In this document: one piece after another, positions 13,108 through 38,465 of the stretch
Layout of the letters: each line of letters starts with the position of its first letter
Position numbering within the stretch: position 1 is the first letter of the stretch
Source: a virus
Virus record (IMG/VR): IMGVR_UViG_3300020478_000022
Location: 1 to 38,465 of that record
Strand: one strand, 5' to 3'
Length of the DNA: 38,465 nt
Position numbers and translations under genes: made by a program
Notes under the pieces: model-generated
Seen by the model: only the letters and a program-made list of their open reading frames with translations
Told to the model about the DNA's origin: nothing
Database searches by the model: none

Positions 13108-14550
13108 TTACAGCCTATAAATTGATTTGTCGATCTTCGGCTGGTCAAGATCAACGATGTAGTCAAACGACATATATTTGGGTCGCGCTTTAGGCACTAT
13201 TTCCCTAATATAATGGTGCCGACTTATGAGTGAATATCTCCACTCATCGCCGACGTGATCTTCCTGATTTTTTGTTTCAACATCCTCGGGTTTGTTTTCA
13301 TCTATTTGTAATGATGGCACAGTCCTTATGAAATGACGGCTGTTAGCAAACACTTTAAACATCCCTTCGAGTAAAAATTGATTGCAAACCGCCCAACCGT
13401 TTTCGCGGCTGTTTTTTCCACCCTTGGCTGGCCACCATTGAATCCCTTCGTCGCGGAACAATTCATAAATTGTTATTCCTTCCCCTTTTGAGTACCAGCA
13501 AGAAGGGTCTGCCGGGTTGTTTCTAAACTCAATTCCCTGGGCCCTTTCGTATTTCTCTGCCTCCCGTATTTTTCTAGCAACTTCTTTAACGGATTCTTTT
13601 GTTCCGACATTCGCCTCCCCACCCCAGCCGTATAATTCTCGGTATCTATATATATTTCCATCCGGGTCTACCGTATACCATCCTATTGAATAAGGTTTCG
13701 TGCTACCCCAGTCCATCGCTCTCCATCGAGGCCATGTTTTTGGGATTCTAAAAGGCTCTACAATATGAACCTCGGGATTCCACGATGAAAAGAACTGCCC
13801 TTCAACAACATCCCAACGTCCATCCAGCAGTTTTTTCCGATCCCTAGCAGGCAACTTCAACAGCATTTCCCTGTAACCCGAATCGCTTAAATGCGGGTTG
13901 TCATCCAACCTCGCCGGGATAAACTGCCTGTATGATTTTGCCACCGTACCGCTTACACGCTCCGCATGAACAAAGCGTGTGCCTGTTCCATCATTCGGAA
14001 TACGCCAGTATTCCTTAACCCAAGCATGACCTCGACCACCAGGGTTTGTTGATGCCCTCGTATAAACCTTAATATCTGGATTGATTGACCTCGTTCTCGA
14101 TTGCAAATACTTAAAGCAAACAGGTGAGGCCCAATGGGTCAACTCGTCCCAACCAACCCATTGGTACTCACTCCCCTGATGACGAAATCTATCTTCATCC
14201 TTATCCATATACGAAAACATGATTTTGGCCCCAGATGGGAAACGCCACTCATGTTCCGTCGTGTTGTAAATTGCCCCCGGATAAATCTGGGGGTAAATCT
14301 CTTTTGAGCGATCAACCAATTCCCCTAATTCGGGAAATGTTTTACGAAATAATATGGCCCTGTAACGTGACCAAGTTAGGGCCTTCTGCGTAAGCCCCAA
14401 CATATCAATAAGTAAGGCGTCTGATTTTCCTCCCCCAGCACTTCCGCCGTACAGCACTTCATCGAAAGAACTGCCTAAGAACTCGTTCTGCTTTTCAGTC
14501 GGCGTCCAAAGGCAATTATTCTTCTTGCTGTCCATCTCCAGAGTTAACAT
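13108..14550 (-). CDS. terL: Terminase large subunit (TerL), 480 aa
   Basis: The packaging ATPase-nuclease. Walker A is GGSAGGGKSD at about residues 35-44 and Walker B is WVGWDE at 131-136. The C-terminal RNase H-like nuclease domain opens with MDWGSTKPYSIGWYTVDPDG, and later acidic positions include GDEWRYSL. The length fits the family. The ATG at 14550 follows GAGGAGGTAA; it overlaps the end of the upstream gene by 35 bp. TerL pumps DNA through the portal and cuts genome units; whether cos or headful cannot be told. Confidence 0.93.
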   Translation of the reverse strand: MLTLEMDSKKNNCLWTPTEKQNEFLGSSFDEVLYGGSAGGGKSDALLIDMLGLTQKALTWSRYRAILFRKTFPELGELVDRSKEIYPQIYPGAIYNTTEHEWRFPSGAKIMFSYMDKDEDRFRHQGSEYQWVGWDELTHWASPVCFKYLQSRTRSINPDIKVYTRASTNPGGRGHAWVKEYWRIPNDGTGTRFVHAERVSGTVAKSYRQFIPARLDDNPHLSDSGYREMLLKLPARDRKKLLDGRWDVVEGQFFSSWNPEVHIVEPFRIPKTWPRWRAMDWGSTKPYSIGWYTVDPDGNIYRYRELYGWGGEANVGTKESVKEVARKIREAEKYERAQGIEFRNNPADPSCWYSKGEGITIYELFRDEGIQWWPAKGGKNSRENGWAVCNQFLLEGMFKVFANSRHFIRTVPSLQIDENKPEDVETKNQEDHVGDEWRYSLISRHHYIREIVPKARPKYMSFDYIVDLDQPKIDKSIYRL

Positions 14551-30847: not shown

Positions 30848-30965
30848 CTGCAAATTGTCTCGGGATGTTCCTACATTTAGTGGTTGACAAGGAATGTAGT
30901 AAGGTGCAATAAATTGTACTTACCTAGTATTGGTTTGAATACCTACTAGGCCATAGTATCCTGAG
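30848..30965. promoter_or_regulatory. Divergent control region between recombination operon and repressor
   Basis: Rightward TTGACA at 30884-30889 with AATAAA 18 bp on, and a second option TTGGTT-N18-TAGTAT (-10 at 30954-30959) nearer the repressor gene. Leftward TACAAT at 30913-30918 is a possible -10 for the recombination operon. Two dyads are present: CTACATT / AATGTAG (30871-30899) around TTGACA, and CCTAGTA / TACTAGG (30923-30950). Which promoter is used is uncertain. Confidence 0.5.
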
Positions 30966-31011: not shown

Positions 31012-31437
31012 ATGCCTAAAAAGCAAAAAATCAAGGGCTTGAGTGAACGGATAGCCCAGGTTATTGAACAATCACCCTATTCCCAGCTTAAAATTGCCGA
31101 AAATATGGGAATAGATCAAGCACAAATCAGTAGGTGGAAGAAAGGAGAAGCGGAGCCTACTGCAAATATGTTGATGCTGTTTGTTAAGGCTAGTAAAACC
31201 AAGAAGACTTTAGATTGGTTATTAAAAGGAGTAGGCAACGGTAATGACTCTCAGTCAACCGTAGCTATTTCTAACTTTGAAACGGAAGGAGATGAGCCAA
31301 TGTATCGAATAAAATATGAAGAGGCCCAGGAAAAAATTATTTTACTCCTTGAAGAAAATGCAAAATTAAGAAGTATTGCGTTTCCAACCCCGGAGGAAAA
31401 CGCAAAAAAATCCGGGGAGAACAGAAAGACCAGCTAG
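31012..31437 (+). CDS. Xre/Cro-CI-type phage repressor without protease domain, 141 aa
   Basis: The helix-turn-helix lies at about residues 12-66: SQLKIAENMGIDQAQISRWK and the following helices are typical. After a short linker comes a coiled coil (YEEAQEKIILLLEENAKLRS, about 102-122) that could make dimers or tetramers. There is no LexA/S24 peptidase-like domain, so SOS-type self-cleavage is not expected. It is flanked by a matching operator and reads opposite to the recombination operon. The 3' end carries a possible frameshift signal. Confidence 0.8.
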   Translation: MPKKQKIKGLSERIAQVIEQSPYSQLKIAENMGIDQAQISRWKKGEAEPTANMLMLFVKASKTKKTLDWLLKGVGNGNDSQSTVAISNFETEGDEPMYRIKYEEAQEKIILLLEENAKLRSIAFPTPEENAKKSGENRKTS

Positions 31438-31462
31438 GGCAAGGCGAGAGGTCTGTTCTCCC
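31404..31462 (+). promoter_or_regulatory. Possible -1 frameshift signal (or leftward terminator) at the repressor stop
   Basis: A AAA AAA (31404-31410, spaces mark the repressor frame) is followed by TCCG and an 11-bp perfect stem GGGAGAACAGA / TCTGTTCTCCC (31415-31425 with 31452-31462). The repressor stop TAG (31435-31437) lies in the loop. After a -1 slip the frame runs open into the PAS ORF. On the minus strand the same hairpin is followed by CGGA and seven Ts, so it might end the leftward late transcript instead. Confidence 0.45.
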
Positions 31463-31490
31463 AAAAATTAAAACTCCCGCGATTCTTGAA

Positions 31491-31823
31491 GTGCAACATC
31501 GTTACAAATGGAATGTGGTTACAGGAGAGGTTGAATTTTCAGACTCATGGTTCACCAGCCTGGGCTACGATCCGAGTGAATTTCCACATCATGTAGAAAC
31601 TTGGGAAAAGTTAGTACACCCTTCTGATCTGCCAAGCATCTACAAATATTTAGCCCCATGCCTCAATGGAGAAGAACAAAAATTCAAAATTATAACTAGA
31701 TTACGTCGAAAAGATGGGGTTTATAGGTACAACTTAGACCACGGGAAATGTGTCAAATCAGATAAAAATGGAAAACCAATTATCATTGAGGGTTATGACA
31801 TTCCATTGAAAGTGGCGGTCTAA
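31491..31823 (+). CDS. PAS-domain ORF, 110 aa
   Basis: A PAS fold of the PAS_3 type: YKWNVVTGEVEFSDSWFTSL then GYDPSEFP, WEKLVHPSDL, KFKIITRLRRKDGVYRY and IIIEGYDIPLK. PAS domains sense ligands, redox or light and mediate dimerisation. The only canonical start is a GTG at 31491, without a visible ribosome site. The frame is open upstream to 31353 and is -1 relative to the repressor. It may be made alone or as a fusion to the repressor. Nothing else (kinase, cyclase) is attached. Confidence 0.7.
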   Translation: MQHRYKWNVVTGEVEFSDSWFTSLGYDPSEFPHHVETWEKLVHPSDLPSIYKYLAPCLNGEEQKFKIITRLRRKDGVYRYNLDHGKCVKSDKNGKPIIIEGYDIPLKVAV

Positions 31824-31842
31824 AAAAATTTACCTAGAAAAG

Positions 31843-31862
31843 TAGGAATTTTCCTATTTTTT
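31843..31862 (+). terminator. Terminator after the repressor/PAS unit
   Basis: TAGGAA-TT-TTCCTA followed by TTTTTT. The loop must open to 4 nt or more, so the effective stem is 5 bp. It overlaps the end of the convergent leftward gene at 31854. Confidence 0.5.
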
Positions 31863-32048
31863 ATTAAGAATGTGTTCCAGGATAACATCGGTAGTTTTCT
31901 CCAACCTTTCAAGGGAAACAGCTACCTCTGAAGCTAGTTTCATCAAATCAGATATTTGGGTTTCCATGCGGTCTTGGCGCCCAAATATCTGCTTGGTGAC
32001 AACCCCACCTATAATTGTAAGGGCCCCAATTAACATTTCATTGACCAT
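31854..32048 (-). CDS. Membrane-anchored coiled-coil protein, 64 aa
   Basis: An N-terminal membrane segment (MLIGALTIIGGVVTKQIFG) then a charged helix (MKLASEVAVSLERLEKTTDV). The last gene of the fibre-distal leftward block; it overlaps the upstream gene by 11 bp. Looks like small phage proteins with haemolysin XhlA-like layout; function not known. Confidence 0.5.
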   Translation of the reverse strand: MVNEMLIGALTIIGGVVTKQIFGRQDRMETQISDLMKLASEVAVSLERLEKTTDVILEHILNKK

Positions 32049-32388
32049 CAACTTTTATTTCCCCCTTGTTTACCCTGATGGTCTTAACGCGATCCTCCTT
32101 ATTTTTATCTACTTCACATAATTTTTCACTAACATCATTAATCCGTGCATGAATCAACTTCAAATCCTCTTTTATCTCTAAACGCGGCACAAGCCGTAAT
32201 TGAATTGAATGATCTATATTACCAACTCGACGATCCAATTCCCCCAGGCTTTTTCTTAGATGATCCAGGTCATCAGCCGCCGCCTTTCCTTTGTCTAAGT
32301 CTTGTATTTTTTCCAAAAGTTTGTTAGCCATCCAACCACCAACAGCAATAAACAATACCCAGAGGTGTTCCAGAATTTTTATGGTCAT
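32038..32388 (-). CDS. Membrane-anchored coiled-coil protein, 116 aa
   Basis: An N-terminal membrane segment (ILEHLWVLFIAVGGWMAN) followed by a long coiled coil (LRKSLGELDRRVGNIDHS; LKLIHARINDVSEKLCEV). The layout resembles XhlA-type or i-spanin-like proteins, but the M15 lysis cluster already has its own set. It may be part of a second lysis or an exclusion system. Confidence 0.5.
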   Translation of the reverse strand: MTIKILEHLWVLFIAVGGWMANKLLEKIQDLDKGKAAADDLDHLRKSLGELDRRVGNIDHSIQLRLVPRLEIKEDLKLIHARINDVSEKLCEVDKNKEDRVKTIRVNKGEIKVDGQ

Positions 32389-32834: not shown

Positions 32835-32915
32835 TCATAAATTGGCCCCCGTCCAAAAGATTAAATAAAAAGCGCCGTATAAAACGGTGCAAAAGATTAA
32901 GAGTTTAAGGTTCAT
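32835..32915 (-). CDS. Tiny membrane peptide, 26 aa
   Basis: The ATG overlaps the stop of the last fibre gene (ATGA). The product starts MNLKLLIFCTVLYGAFYLIF and ends WTGANL: one membrane segment. Confidence 0.5.
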   Translation of the reverse strand: MNLKLLIFCTVLYGAFYLIFWTGANL

Positions 32916-34267
32916 GCCCAAGCTAAACTAGTAGCGTGGATTCTAGTTTCTTTACTACCAGCACTTTGATTATGTGTGGTAAGTTTATATTTCATACTTG
33001 TTCCACTTGCTATGCCACTAATATCTACATTCCTAGCAACCAGTATTCTTTTATTCGTTCCCCAATCACCTTCGTCAACGAAAGTAACTGCACTTGAAAA
33101 AGCTGAACCATCTCTACTGATGTATCCTTTAATATCGGTATTAGCTGTCGCTGTACCGCTGGCATCTTCGATCAACACTACCAAGTCTGCACTTGTAGGG
33201 GCTGATTCGGCTGTAGTTGCGGTTGATTGGAGAGTTAAATCTTGAGCCGTAGTTGCTGTATATATCAAGACAGCCGCACCATGTTCTCCGTTACTGGTAG
33301 GAGTACCACCATCACCTGTGCCTGCCTGATAATCTGAATCACTCCCATTAGCAACAGTATGCCCACTAGCTTGAGTATTTGTTCCAGTAGGAGCATAACC
33401 AGACCCTCCACCCCCACCACCATCACCTGCGCCACCACCACCATAGTATCCGCCACCACCACCGCCAGCAGTCCAAGTTGCATTATCACCATCACCAAGA
33501 CCACCACCGTTATATCCACCAGTAGCATCAACAGCAGAACCAGTTTTAGCACGACCACCTGTCCCTGCACTTCCAGCAGTACCGCCTGTTCCTGCGGCTC
33601 CACCAGCACTTTGTGTCCCACCTAAACCTTGACCACCACTACCACCACCATCGGCTCCTGTCGCACCACCCCCTGCCCCTCCGTGAGTAGTAGTTGAATC
33701 CCCTGCGCCACCTCCTCCGCCAGCACCAGCAAGAAAAGTTCCAGAACGATCAATAGATGTCCAACCACCCCCACCGCCTTTTCGGGATGCTCCATCTACT
33801 ACCCGTTGTCCTCCTCCACCAACTTTAACATTTAAAGTTTCACCAGAAGTTACACTAATATCTTCTTGAACAAATCCTCCCCCACCACCATTAGCGTTTC
33901 CATCTCCTCCTGAACCACCCCCTGCTCCCCATGCTTTGAAAGTAATTGTGGATACACCGCTTGGTACAGTAAATGTTTGATTGGCTCCTGTATAAGATTT
34001 TACAGTTGTTGTGGGAGAACCTACTGTTCCTCCGAAATAATATTTAGAAGTTCCAGAACCACCAGCAGATTCATTTGTAGAGTTACCAGCATCTATACCA
34101 GTAGCATCTTGATATTCATCTATAACTTGGTCAACCATATTAAACTTAGCAAGCTGATTAGAAGAAGCTATTTTAAAAGCTAATATGGCTTGGTTATATT
34201 CAAGGGTTGCAGTTGATGGAATTGTTCCATCCGCAATCACATTTGAAGTTACTTTGGTTAAACTCAT
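32912..34267 (-). CDS. Glycine-rich tail fibre-type protein, 451 aa
   Basis: The N-terminal part (about 1-85) has a helical region (YNQAILAFKIASSNQLAKFN). A long Gly-rich domain follows (GGGGGGFVQEDIS-type, about 100-335) with repeated GGGGG, GGAGG and GGGYYGGGG units. The C-terminal beta-rich domain (about 345-451; VLIEDASGTATANTDIKGYI then TSLAWA) resembles other marine phage fibre ends. GAGGCGG precedes the ATG. Probably a receptor-binding or fibre-tip protein. Confidence 0.7.
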   Translation of the reverse strand: MSLTKVTSNVIADGTIPSTATLEYNQAILAFKIASSNQLAKFNMVDQVIDEYQDATGIDAGNSTNESAGGSGTSKYYFGGTVGSPTTTVKSYTGANQTFTVPSGVSTITFKAWGAGGGSGGDGNANGGGGGFVQEDISVTSGETLNVKVGGGGQRVVDGASRKGGGGGWTSIDRSGTFLAGAGGGGGAGDSTTTHGGAGGGATGADGGGSGGQGLGGTQSAGGAAGTGGTAGSAGTGGRAKTGSAVDATGGYNGGGLGDGDNATWTAGGGGGGYYGGGGAGDGGGGGGSGYAPTGTNTQASGHTVANGSDSDYQAGTGDGGTPTSNGEHGAAVLIYTATTAQDLTLQSTATTAESAPTSADLVVLIEDASGTATANTDIKGYISRDGSAFSSAVTFVDEGDWGTNKRILVARNVDISGIASGTSMKYKLTTHNQSAGSKETRIHATSLAWA

Positions 34268-34269
34268 AA

Positions 34270-35739
34270 TTAAACCGCCTCTATTTTATATCTAACAATT
34301 ACTATTCCTGAACCACCAGCACCCCCAGCCCCTGAACTATCTGAATTTCCTCCACCCCCACCTCCAGTATTAACCGTTCCAGCTTCAGGAGTTGTTGTAC
34401 CTGACCCCCAATCTGCACCTTTACCACCGCCACCAAGACCACCATCAGACATACCAGAAGTAACGCTCGAATAAGCCCCTCCCCCTCCACCTCCAGCATA
34501 ATACGTTCCATTTACCCATTGTAATCCATCACCGCCAGCACCACCAATATTAGAACCGGCTGTACCATCACTACCTACCTCAGATGCGCCACCGCCTCCT
34601 CCTCCACTTCCAGCATTACTACCTGCACCACCATTGTAGCCTTCAACGGGAGAGTAGCTACCAGCGTTGCCTGATCCAGCTAAATGAGCGTTGTTCCAAG
34701 TTGTTCCACATCCACCACCACCTGACCCACCACTTACACCCCCATTACCAGAACTATAACCAGAACCGCCACCACCGCCACTTGATGTTGTGGTATTAAA
34801 AACAGAATTAGAACCAGAACCGCCATTTTGGTTATCTGACCCTGCTGACCCACCACCACCCACAGTCACCGTATAACTGGTTGCCGTGACGGTGACATCC
34901 GTAATATATCTATACCCACCAGCACCACCGCCACCTCCATAGTATCCAGCCGCACCAGCACCTCCCCCTGCTACAATTAGATAATCAATTTTTGAATCGC
35001 TACCTATATTGCTAACGGTAAATGTTCCAGAAGAAGTAAACGTATGATACTTGTATGCGCCACTTGTAGTAATTGTTCCACCCGTAGCGGTAATTGGAAC
35101 TAAAGAACTAATTGACCCCAAATCTTTTTCATGGTGATACCAAATGTTAGCGTTGGTCGTTGCATCTTTACAGGCGTAGATAGAGCCTGTCTCTGTATTA
35201 ACATATAGCGTACCAACACCACCAGACGGGTTTGTTGAAACAGTTGGATTACTCGATCCTGAAAGAACTGGACTAGGCAAGTTAGTCAACTGACTTCCAT
35301 CTACCGCAGGAATCTTTGCACTACCATCTAGCTTAACAATTTGATTAGCAGAGGTTCCTGTATCAACGGTTGCAGAAGTTCCAAGACCATGTGATGCAAT
35401 AGAAGTTACAGCACCACTAATTTTAGAAGTAGCTATAGCCGCACTATTATCAATCTTTGCATCTGTTACTGTACCGTCACCCGGAGTTCCAATGGATAAA
35501 GTAAGTCCAGTATAAATAACTTGTATTGCGATTGGATTGGCTACTGTAGAAGTAAATACAAGAGAAGTTCCTGTTACATTGAAATCTGTACCATTTTTTT
35601 GAACCACCCCATCAAGACTCACAACAATTCCATCAGTAGTAGTATCATACGATAAACTGTACGTTGCACCGCCATTTCCCGTGAAGTGGTCAACGGATGC
35701 GTTTCCATACGAGATTCCCCGGCCTACATATCCACTCAT
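34270..35739 (-). CDS. Glycine-rich tail fibre protein, 489 aa
   Basis: The N-terminal domain (SGYVGRGISYGNASVDHFTG then SYDTTTDGIVVSLDGVVQKN) is of a kind common in marine phage fibres. A middle unit PTVSTNPSGGVGTLYVNT with ACKDATTNANIW follows, then a Gly-rich domain (LIVAGGGAGAAGYYGGGGGA onward) ending SGIVIVRYKIEAV. ATG 35739 (GGAAGGAG before it) overlaps the stop of the 105-aa gene. Confidence 0.75.
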   Translation of the reverse strand: MSGYVGRGISYGNASVDHFTGNGGATYSLSYDTTTDGIVVSLDGVVQKNGTDFNVTGTSLVFTSTVANPIAIQVIYTGLTLSIGTPGDGTVTDAKIDNSAAIATSKISGAVTSIASHGLGTSATVDTGTSANQIVKLDGSAKIPAVDGSQLTNLPSPVLSGSSNPTVSTNPSGGVGTLYVNTETGSIYACKDATTNANIWYHHEKDLGSISSLVPITATGGTITTSGAYKYHTFTSSGTFTVSNIGSDSKIDYLIVAGGGAGAAGYYGGGGGAGGYRYITDVTVTATSYTVTVGGGGSAGSDNQNGGSGSNSVFNTTTSSGGGGGSGYSSGNGGVSGGSGGGGCGTTWNNAHLAGSGNAGSYSPVEGYNGGAGSNAGSGGGGGGASEVGSDGTAGSNIGGAGGDGLQWVNGTYYAGGGGGGAYSSVTSGMSDGGLGGGGKGADWGSGTTTPEAGTVNTGGGGGGNSDSSGAGGAGGSGIVIVRYKIEAV

Positions 35740-36053
35740 TCTCGCTCCTTCCAAGCTTTAGAATCTTCATCCCAATCATAAATTTTCCCATCGTCAGGCA
35801 TAGCACTTGGGGCTTGCCAATCATCGTTGCTGTCTAATGACCATGAGGGGAAAGGTTGAGGTGCGATGAATTTATCTTTAGCCTTATCGTAGGTAAAACC
35901 TATACCAGCAAACTGTTTCCTGAAATTATTATTATAGCTAGTCTGTACCCAGTTAAAGGAGTCACCTACCGCACCACTATTTATAAAATCTTGCTCTGCT
36001 ACGATTACTCTTTGTACTACTCCATCTTTATTTATTTCCGCGAAATGACTCAT
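35736..36053 (-). CDS. Fibre-associated protein of marine phage type, 105 aa
   Basis: The protein starts MSHFAEINKDGVVQRVIVAE, has WVQTSYNNNFRKQFAGIGFT then YDKAKDKFIAPQPFPSWSLD and a WQAPSAMPDDG segment. This is a well-known uncharacterised protein of cyanophages and other marine phages, often next to fibre genes; it may be a fibre chaperone or tip protein. It sits between two fibre paralogues. Confidence 0.75.
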   Translation of the reverse strand: MSHFAEINKDGVVQRVIVAEQDFINSGAVGDSFNWVQTSYNNNFRKQFAGIGFTYDKAKDKFIAPQPFPSWSLDSNDDWQAPSAMPDDGKIYDWDEDSKAWKERE

Positions 36054-36063
36054 ATCTCACCTG

Positions 36064-37146
36064 TTATTGAAATTTGTATCTTAAAATTACTACGCCTGAT
36101 CCACCGCTACCACCTGTTCCACTAGAACAACCTCCACCGCCACCGCCCGTATTGGCTGTGCCACTTTCTTGTGCGCCACTACTACCTTGACCTCGACCAC
36201 CACCTCCATTACCACCTACACCAGTTGTATAACTATTATAAGTACCGCCTCCACCTCCACCACCTCTTGTGACAGCAGAACCAGTTATGGAAGAAGATAA
36301 GCCATCGCCACCATCACCACCTTTACTCGCACTATTACCAGCTTCACCAACTTCGCTTGCGCCCCCTCCACCACCAGCACAATGTCCAGCCGATCTAGCA
36401 CCACCCTGACCACCAGCATAGCCTTGGCCAGTAGTTCCAGCACCACCAGCTTTATTTTCCCACATACCTCCCCCACCACTTCCCCCTGCGCCACCAGCTA
36501 CGCCCCATGAACCAGAGGAATTACCACCATAGCCACCACCAGTAGAAGTAACTGTAGAGAAAGAAGAATCTGAACCGTTACTAGGATTATTATTTTGTCC
36601 AGTTAAGCCAGCACCACCAGCACCTACAGTAATGGAGTAAGATTGAGCGGCAACACCAAAATTTGTAGCTGTGCGATACCCACCAGCACCGCCCCCACCA
36701 CCATTAGAGGCTCCAGCCCCACCGCCACCAGCTATAACTAGATATTCAAGAACTCCATCATCACCTAAAGTGGTGACTTGAAATGTTCCAGAAGAATTGA
36801 ACACATGAACCTTATAATCACCATCTGTAGTTATAGTTCCTCCTGTCGCTACCATACCTACATACGGCAAGTTTCCTGTACCCTCTCCTATATTCGTCCA
36901 CTCATTATTGTTGTTAGTCGAATCAGTACAAGAGAACATCTCTCCTGAAGTTGTGTTAAGCCATAGAGTACCTACACCACCAGAAGGATTAGTTGTTTCT
37001 GTAGGATCGGAAGCGTTTTTAGTTATTTCATCAGGACTAGCTGGCAAGTTGGTAAGACTAGCCCCTGATATAGCTGGCAAAGCACCTGTCAGTTTACTTG
37101 CGGCTACCGTATCGATTGAGTCTGATTTTATTTTACTTGTTGCCAT
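36064..37146 (-). CDS. Glycine-rich tail fibre protein, 360 aa
   Basis: A short N-terminal part (TSKIKSDSIDTVAASKLTGA then LPAISGASLTNLPASPDEI) and the TNPSGGVGTLWLNTTSGEMF unit precede a Gly-rich domain (LEYLVIAGGGGAGASNGGGG; VAGGAGGSGGGGMW) that ends GSGVVILRYKFQ. The ATG is in the last codons of the upstream fibre gene. It lacks the longer N-terminal domain of its paralogues, so it may be an added branch. Confidence 0.72.
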   Translation of the reverse strand: MATSKIKSDSIDTVAASKLTGALPAISGASLTNLPASPDEITKNASDPTETTNPSGGVGTLWLNTTSGEMFSCTDSTNNNNEWTNIGEGTGNLPYVGMVATGGTITTDGDYKVHVFNSSGTFQVTTLGDDGVLEYLVIAGGGGAGASNGGGGGAGGYRTATNFGVAAQSYSITVGAGGAGLTGQNNNPSNGSDSSFSTVTSTGGGYGGNSSGSWGVAGGAGGSGGGGMWENKAGGAGTTGQGYAGGQGGARSAGHCAGGGGGASEVGEAGNSASKGGDGGDGLSSSITGSAVTRGGGGGGGTYNSYTTGVGGNGGGGRGQGSSGAQESGTANTGGGGGGCSSGTGGSGGSGVVILRYKFQ

Positions 37147-38465
37147 TATGGTGTGTAACTCCCTGAACTATTAAATGTTAAAATGGTATCTGAACCTGAT
37201 GTCGTAACAGTTGGGGAACCAGAAGTTGTACCAGAATAATCAGCAGTAGCCATCCGTAAGATAACAACACCAGAACCGCCATTACCTCCTTGAGTATTAT
37301 TTGCATTTCCACCGCCCCCACCTCCCGTATTAACTGTTCCATCATCAGCACTCGTAACTTTACCAGCACCACCGCCTCCGTCACCACCAGCTATAGTGGA
37401 ACCAGACCCACCAGAACCACCGCCAGCCCTAACTACAGAAGAACCAGTTATAGTAGAAGCTACTCCATCTCCTCCATGACCACCGCCATCAGTATTACCA
37501 GCTTCGCCTGCGCCGCCACCTCCCCCACCGTGGCTACCAGAACTACCAGTACCACCAGCGTAACCTTGATTGGCTGTACCAGCACCGCCAGCGGAATTAC
37601 CATCTGCACCACCTCCACCGCCCGATCCACCGGGATAACCAGTAGGCCCGTTAGTGTTTCCTTTTGTACCTCCACCACCTGTTGAAGTAATAGTAGCAAA
37701 AACTGAATCACTACCATCTGCACCAGAGCGTTCTGTACCAGAAGATTGATAACCACCAGCACCGCCAGCACCTATTGTAATAGTTAATGCGGCATCACCA
37801 GCCGATGCTGAAACAGCAGTTTCAGATGAACCACCACCACCAGAAGTTTCATTATTCCAAGATGCACGATAACCCCCTGCACCACCACCTCCAAAATTCC
37901 AACCACTACCATTAGCGTTAATACCGCCACCGCCGCCACCCCCTGCAATAACTAGGTAATCTATATTATAAGCTGGTGCTACACTACCATCCTGACCAGC
38001 TTTCCAAACATTCGCACCAGCCGTAGCATCAATACACGCCCATAATTTTCCTGTGGAAGTATTAAGAATTAAACTACCGACACCGCCTGACGGATTTGTT
38101 GATACAGTTGGATCAGAACTTTGCTTAGTTATTTCAGAAGGAAGATTCGTAAGCGAGGCTCCCGATATAGCTGGTAATGCGCCCGTCAGCTTACTGGAAG
38201 ATAAACCACTAATCTTTGCATCTGTAACAGCAGAATCTTCAATCTTTGCTGTGCCAACAGAACCATCAGGAGGATTAATTGTACCTACTGATTTACCAAG
38301 ATAAACGCAATACATTGTATCTGTGCCAGCAGTTGCGGAAGAAAGAGTCAGAGTAGTACCGCTTGCTGTATACGCATAGCTTGATCCGGGTTGCTGTCTT
38401 ACGTTATTAATGAATAATGCAATTTCATTTTCATTAGTAACAGCATTGGATAACGTATAGTTGGC
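37146..38465 (-). CDS. Glycine-rich tail fibre protein, 5' truncated by the window
   Basis: The frame is open to the right edge; 50 further codons before the first Met at 38315 (ANYTLSNAVTNENEIALFIN then NVRQQPGSSYAYTASGTTLT) are clearly coding, so the true start is outside. Then come SKLTGALPAISGASLTNLPS, the TNPSGGVGSLILNTSTGKLW unit and a Gly-rich domain ending GSGVVILRMATAD, with a short beta-rich tail. The N-terminal part outside probably joins the tail. Confidence 0.75.
   Translation of the reverse strand, partial: ANYTLSNAVTNENEIALFINNVRQQPGSSYAYTASGTTLTLSSATAGTDTMYCVYLGKSVGTINPPDGSVGTAKIEDSAVTDAKISGLSSSKLTGALPAISGASLTNLPSEITKQSSDPTVSTNPSGGVGSLILNTSTGKLWACIDATAGANVWKAGQDGSVAPAYNIDYLVIAGGGGGGGINANGSGWNFGGGGAGGYRASWNNETSGGGGSSETAVSASAGDAALTITIGAGGAGGYQSSGTERSGADGSDSVFATITSTGGGGTKGNTNGPTGYPGGSGGGGGADGNSAGGAGTANQGYAGGTGSSGSHGGGGGGAGEAGNTDGGGHGGDGVASTITGSSVVRAGGGSGGSGSTIAGGDGGGGAGKVTSADDGTVNTGGGGGGNANNTQGGNGGSGVVILRMATADYSGTTSGSPTVTTSGSDTILTFNSSGSYTP

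Follow-up and report, generated by a model that had tools for sequence, protein, structure and literature searches.

A putative programmed −1 frameshift signal linking a repressor gene to a PAS domain in a temperate podovirus

The repressor gene of an uncultured temperate podovirus, present in an IMG/VR record of 38,465 bases that was analyzed over its full length (hereafter the window), appears to carry a dnaX-type programmed −1 frameshift signal composed of an internal SD, the slippery heptamer A AAA AAA and a stem-loop. Judging from the nucleotide sequence, we place the probability of this reading at roughly 0.55. Most ribosomes would stop at the TAG codon at position 31435 and yield a 141-aa repressor with an HTH domain and a coiled coil. 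The stem and the SD pairing would hold the ribosome with the lysine codons AAA AAA in its P and A sites, and a fraction of ribosomes would slip one base back on the run of seven A nucleotides (A7) and add 137 codons, for a linker and the PAS domain, to give a 270-aa HTH-coil-PAS protein. Both forms would have the same start and common DNA-binding and coil parts, mixed oligomers could assemble through the coil, and the PAS_3 domain may tune DNA binding or oligomerization to a host signal. Our wider picture is more tentative, namely that of a phage in which a −1 frameshift sets the ratio of plain to PAS-fused repressor, the PAS domain is of host origin, and sensing enters lysogeny control without self-cleavage. 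The arrangement is known from this one unverified contig, and its features are as follows.

30923 to 30950, no strand assigned: candidate operator upstream of the repressor, CCTAGTA and an inverted copy (speculative; count not above chance)
31012 to 31437, plus strand: 0-frame product, an HTH_3 repressor of 141 aa whose C-terminal helix is coiled-coil-like (Pfam, PHROG)
31353 to 31823, plus strand: −1 open frame, coding-like from 31410 (frame reading, codon-usage scores)
31388 to 31417, plus strand: alternative hairpin CCCCGGA/TCCGGGG (31388 to 31394 with 31411 to 31417) that encloses A7 (read from the sequence)
31392 to 31397, plus strand: internal SD-like GGAGGA, 7 nt (from GGAGG) before the heptamer (sequence, anti-SD pairing)
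31404 to 31410, plus strand: slippery heptamer A AAA AAA, in phase (gcA AAA AAA tcc)
31415 to 31425, plus strand: 5′ arm of a perfect 11-bp stem, 4 nt past the heptamer
31435 to 31437, plus strand: 0-frame stop codon TAG, in the loop of the stem
31452 to 31462, plus strand: 3′ arm of the 11-bp stem
31491 to 31823, plus strand: PAS_3 domain, with GTG 31491 as the first common start codon in frame and no ribosome site
31838 to 31861, plus strand: terminator-like inverted repeat followed by a T run, just past the PAS ORF (unlisted in a stricter terminator scan)

An earlier note on this DNA had described A AAA AAA followed, after 4 nt, by a stem of 11 uninterrupted pairs that has the stop codon in its loop, and all of these elements are present. 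The heptamer lies inside the overlap of the two frames (31353 to 31437), the spacer reads TCCG, and the arms GGGAGAACAGA and TCTGTTCTCCC form 11 of 11 pairs around a 26-nt loop that contains TAG. Folding of this stem-loop yields −22.3 kcal/mol (z −3.7), a value equaled by 0 of 200 shuffled sequences. For a wider segment of 101 nt, the z score is only −1.3, which is not exceptional, and the same stem is still found in the fold. An Rfam search returned no credible match. We also considered the stem arms as a repeated operator and rejected this assignment because they are found nowhere else in the window.

Two further elements are absent from the earlier note. The GGAGGA sequence pairs with the anti-SD sequence ACCUCCUUA at −9.5 kcal/mol, and its placement 7 nt from the heptamer is suggestive of a frameshift stimulator. 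The alternative hairpin, of 7 bp, has GGG in common with the main stem, such that the two structures compete, and four of its pairs are present in the minimum-energy fold of the 101-nt segment. This competition over the slip site argues against the programmed reading, as does the fact that the heptamer, the stem spacing and the SD distance are each slightly off the textbook optimum. In E. coli, A_AAA_AAA is much less slippery than A_AAA_AAG (PMC5009743), and therefore the share of the long form is likely to be low if E. coli is a guide. An SD located 8 to 11 nt from the heptamer stimulates −1 shifting and a nearer SD attenuates it (PMC6321510), which places the 7-nt distance seen here just under the stimulating range. 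Likewise, the stem begins after 4 nt, where 5 to 9 nt is usual for a 3′ frameshift structure. A 15-nt imperfect direct repeat (31351 to 31365 and 31393 to 31407) also occurs in this region, with its copies 42 nt apart and in frame so that EENAK is encoded twice, and the slip site may have originated by this short internal duplication.

Runs of seven or eight A or T nucleotides are common in this virus genome, and so A7 by itself means little. The combination of elements was compared across all 83 in-phase slippery heptamers in 60 genes of the window. The site has the top rank among them in stem length as well as in folding energy, is fourth in the strength of the upstream SD, and opens into a long −1 frame. 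The window has two places with perfect stems of at least 11 bp and loops of at most 30 nt, versus 0.42 ± 0.74 in dinucleotide shuffles, an expectation that counts overlapping hits. From this value, the probability of such a stem 2 to 10 nt behind this one heptamer is roughly 1e-4 (0.42/38465 × 9), and that of such a stem behind any of the 83 is about 1e-2, both being after-the-fact figures. These comparisons support the view that the anatomy of the slip site is much better than expected by chance. A second perfect stem, of 12 bp (CAGATATTTGGG, 31949 to 31991), resides within a small left-going gene at 31854 to 32051.

The HTH and PAS domains are both encoded but lie in two frames, and thus a shift of frame would be needed to place them in a single polypeptide. 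As the earlier note had stated, the −1 frame is open throughout 31353 to 31823, and a −1 slip reads NAKKIRGEQKD across the junction, with the shift after NAKK. Codon usage was scored with this virus's own genes as the reference. Before A7 (to 31409), the 0 frame scores +0.33 and the −1 frame −0.32 bits per codon, and in the stretch between the stop codon and the GTG the −1 frame scores +0.31, where genes average 0.32 ± 0.16. Compared with open out-of-frame windows, the 27 codons of the −1 frame from 31410 to 31490 are at the 99th percentile; compared with true coding windows, they are at the 29th. The coding frame therefore switches at the junction, and the −1 frame is coding-like from the shift site on.

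The PAS_3 match is strong (Pfam E 7.6e-18) and its core residues are conserved, indicating that the domain has not decayed. The first common start codon of its frame, GTG 31491, had been noted previously as having no ribosome site, and it indeed scores +0.3 kcal/mol compared with a gene median of −4.0, although eight other genes are equal or weaker. From the codon-usage switch at the junction, the GTG that has no ribosome site and the intact PAS_3 domain, it is most likely that the PAS ORF is translated from the start of the repressor, as the extension that the earlier note had proposed. Single-sequence AlphaFold models were too poor for use (pLDDT 46).

The virus encodes a portal, terminase, integrase, ERF annealing protein, primase-helicase and endolysin on the left-going strand. 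Relatives of the terminase reach 72% identity in IMG/VR, on short contigs, and in metagenome-assembled genomes they reach 58% (labeled Gammaproteobacteria) and 52% (Nitrospinia). Relatives of the primase at 39 to 44% are found in 4 of 77 Nitrospinota genomes. For the PAS domain, the nearest relatives are those within large sensor proteins of Nitrospinota, at up to 47%, whereas the best match among 229 Gammaproteobacteria is 40%. Based on these relatives, the host is probably a marine Nitrospinota bacterium, and we infer that the PAS domain was acquired from such a host. Nitrospinota are a major group of marine nitrite oxidizers, and we know of no cultured temperate phage that infects them. The terminase gene (13108 to 14550) resembles those of HMO-2011-type marine podoviruses and of uncultured gut phages; despite this resemblance, an integrase and a repressor are present and near relatives occur in Nitrospinota genomes. 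Four tandem glycine-rich genes resembling tail fibers, with sequences that are alike, occupy 32912 to 38465.

The repressor itself matches HTH_3 (Pfam E 2.2e-6, above the cut-off) and the PHROG family for transcriptional repressors, phrog_4, and its start has a ribosome-site score of −5.7 kcal/mol where the median of all genes is −4.0. Between the ERF gene and the repressor (30868 to 30950) are inverted repeats TTCCTACATT/AATGTAGTAA and CCTAGTA/TACTAGG, which are possible operators. Neither the 0-frame product nor the PAS-frame product has a Pfam match to the S24 peptidase domain. This repressor, an HTH protein without S24, thus lies outside the CI/LexA-like self-cleaving class. The earlier note had presented the PAS domain as standing in place of a self-cleaving domain, and to the extent that no S24/LexA-type domain is encoded this holds. 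The phrase is overstated, however, because short HTH-coil repressors without a third domain exist in other Nitrospinota genomes, with proteins of 126, 135 and 151 aa in three of them (L184, L214 and L318). These parallels make the 141-aa form plausible as a finished protein. HTH-S24 repressors of the usual kind are also present in those genomes, as judged by eye from their sequences.

The earlier note had suggested a search for homologs that carry HTH and PAS in one frame, and this search did not produce any. Proteins joining the two domains, either in one frame or by a shift, were absent from IMG/VR within the reach of our searches and from 50,697 phage records, 77 Nitrospinota genomes and plasmids. 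Profiles of the terminase and primase pointed to the host clade but yielded no relative with this arrangement. No PAS match was found in 41 related whole virus records, and a search of 84,980 genomes by exact 8-mers did not find the fused protein. Single IMG/VR queries with the repressor, PAS ORF, ERF gene, primase and integrase gave nothing useful. A PAS_3 profile search of IMG/VR, which used a single pattern that this PAS domain itself does not match, gave no confirmed hit and is a weak negative. Programmed frameshifts are usually established by their conservation, but because searches of the larger collections reach close relatives only, absence from them is weak evidence. A similar PAS domain was found in just one phage record, that of Pseudomonas phage Y10, which was rejected because the match is a PAS-GGDEF protein beside a PtsP-like gene and looks like bacterial DNA. 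This record (OQ572411.1) is unverified and has bacterial-looking genes, and part of it is probably host DNA.

At one Nitrospinota locus, the two parts do occur together, as separate genes. At L226 (3487 to 5188, G057:C346), a 118-aa HTH-coil gene, a broken coil ORF and a 198-aa coil-PAS_3 gene lie on one strand at a chromosomal position, with an ammonium-transporter-like gene on one side and a transporter on the other. The PAS domain there is 40% identical to that of the virus over 115 aa, and the locus hints that the two parts work together. The frame of its middle ORF breaks at an A7 run in the −1 direction (MDVYIELLEKVIKLLRKK, then SLSVELDK) and again farther on.

The main rival to a programmed shift is a change in the length of the A run, an alternative that the earlier note had itself raised. 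Under this explanation, a single HTH-coil-PAS gene has been altered by a sequencing or assembly error or by a recent mutation, and only the long protein is, or was, made. The codon-usage switch distinguishes a fusion from a separate gene but does not distinguish a programmed shift from a changed A run, since the same signal is equally expected from a gene that was recently in a single frame. A PAS domain without its own start and a break located exactly within a homopolymer also fit, and the similar A7 break in the neighboring ORF at L226 demonstrates that such breaks can arise without programming. Nevertheless, a changed A run leaves to chance both the strong SD and the perfect stem at the right distance, for which the figure of roughly 1e-4 applies. 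In addition, many other runs of seven or eight A or T nucleotides on the contig sit within intact genes, which indicates that such errors are uncommon in this sequence, and an in-frame fusion was not found elsewhere. We regard the altered single gene as less likely than the frameshift signal, though as its main competitor.

A rather improbable alternative is that RNA polymerase adds a base on the A run in part of the transcripts, which would generate the fused protein by transcriptional slippage. In transposase genes, both mechanisms operate at poly-A sites (PMC3711429). The protein outcome would be identical to that of ribosomal frameshifting. However, A7 is generally considered short for transcriptional slippage, the many other runs of seven or eight A or T on the contig would slip too, and neither a 3′ stem nor an internal SD has a known role in this process.

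About equally improbable is a free PAS protein, made either from a separate gene starting at GTG 31491 or by re-initiation after TAG. In the PAS frame, the 80 nt ahead of the GTG resemble coding sequence, and the GTG is located 53 nt past TAG, behind a stable stem and without an SD. The eight other virus genes with equally weak ribosome sites lend this possibility some weight, as does the stand-alone 198-aa coil-PAS_3 gene downstream of the HTH-coil gene at L226, although in this relative a long coil precedes the PAS domain, whereas the GTG start would leave none. Finally, we give very little credence to the hairpin being a minus-strand terminator of the leftward late operon that is unrelated to frameshifting: CGGA and T7 come after the stem on that strand and the late genes run toward it, but a T run 4 nt past the stem and a 26-nt loop are poor for an intrinsic terminator, which has a GC-rich stem with a short loop and an immediate U run, the terminator scan lists none, and the end of the operon lies about 400 nt before the hairpin, at 31854, where there is another terminator-like repeat.

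The signal that we favor, a programmed −1 frameshift, resembles that of E. coli dnaX, which also combines an internal SD, a heptamer of A nucleotides at lysine codons and a 3′ stem-loop to make two products from one start (PMC3711429, PMC5600365). The heptamer of dnaX is A_AAA_AAG rather than A_AAA_AAA, and the spacings of the virus site are 7 and 4 nt. Furthermore, the shifted product of dnaX is the shorter one, whereas here the longer product would bear an extra domain. Insertion sequences of the IS3/IS1 type likewise have an N-terminal HTH protein (OrfA) with a −1 shift at a poly-A site into a second ORF (OrfB). In these transposases, the short HTH form alone serves as a regulator. Their second ORF is the transposase rather than a PAS domain. 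Clusters of poly-A frameshift sites in IS transposase genes have been listed (PMC3711429).

Among phages, the cro gene of Lactobacillus phage A2 is a lysogeny-switch gene of a temperate phage with a −1 shift (PMC5009743), but the product of that shift loses only 12 aa and seems to have no relevance in the native host, whereas here a domain would be added. Lambda G-GT and the Ig-like extensions are cases in which some copies of a phage protein gain a C-terminal domain (PMC5009743), and the proteins concerned have structural or assembly roles and are not repressors. The phage frameshifts known to have a clear role produce structural proteins or transposases. An XRE-type HTH joined to a PAS-like ligand-binding domain in one protein is found in MltR and MmyB-like regulators (PMC3406030). 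These regulators are chromosomal, have an uninterrupted frame and a fatty-acid ligand, and carry an MmyB-type domain rather than PAS_3. The short Nitrospinota HTH-coil repressors have the same N-terminal architecture, but HTH and PAS are not united there, or at the L226 locus, either within one protein or through a shift.

With partial coverage of the literature, we found no paper on a frameshift that joins a phage repressor to a PAS domain. If the programmed reading is true, both a host signal and ribosome behavior would bear on whether lysis or lysogeny is chosen, through the share of sensor-linked repressor that the frameshift sets, and this would also be a form of lysogeny control in viruses of Nitrospinota. 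Frameshifting in lysogeny genes and proteins that unite HTH and PAS domains are each known, and it is their combination that appears to be new.
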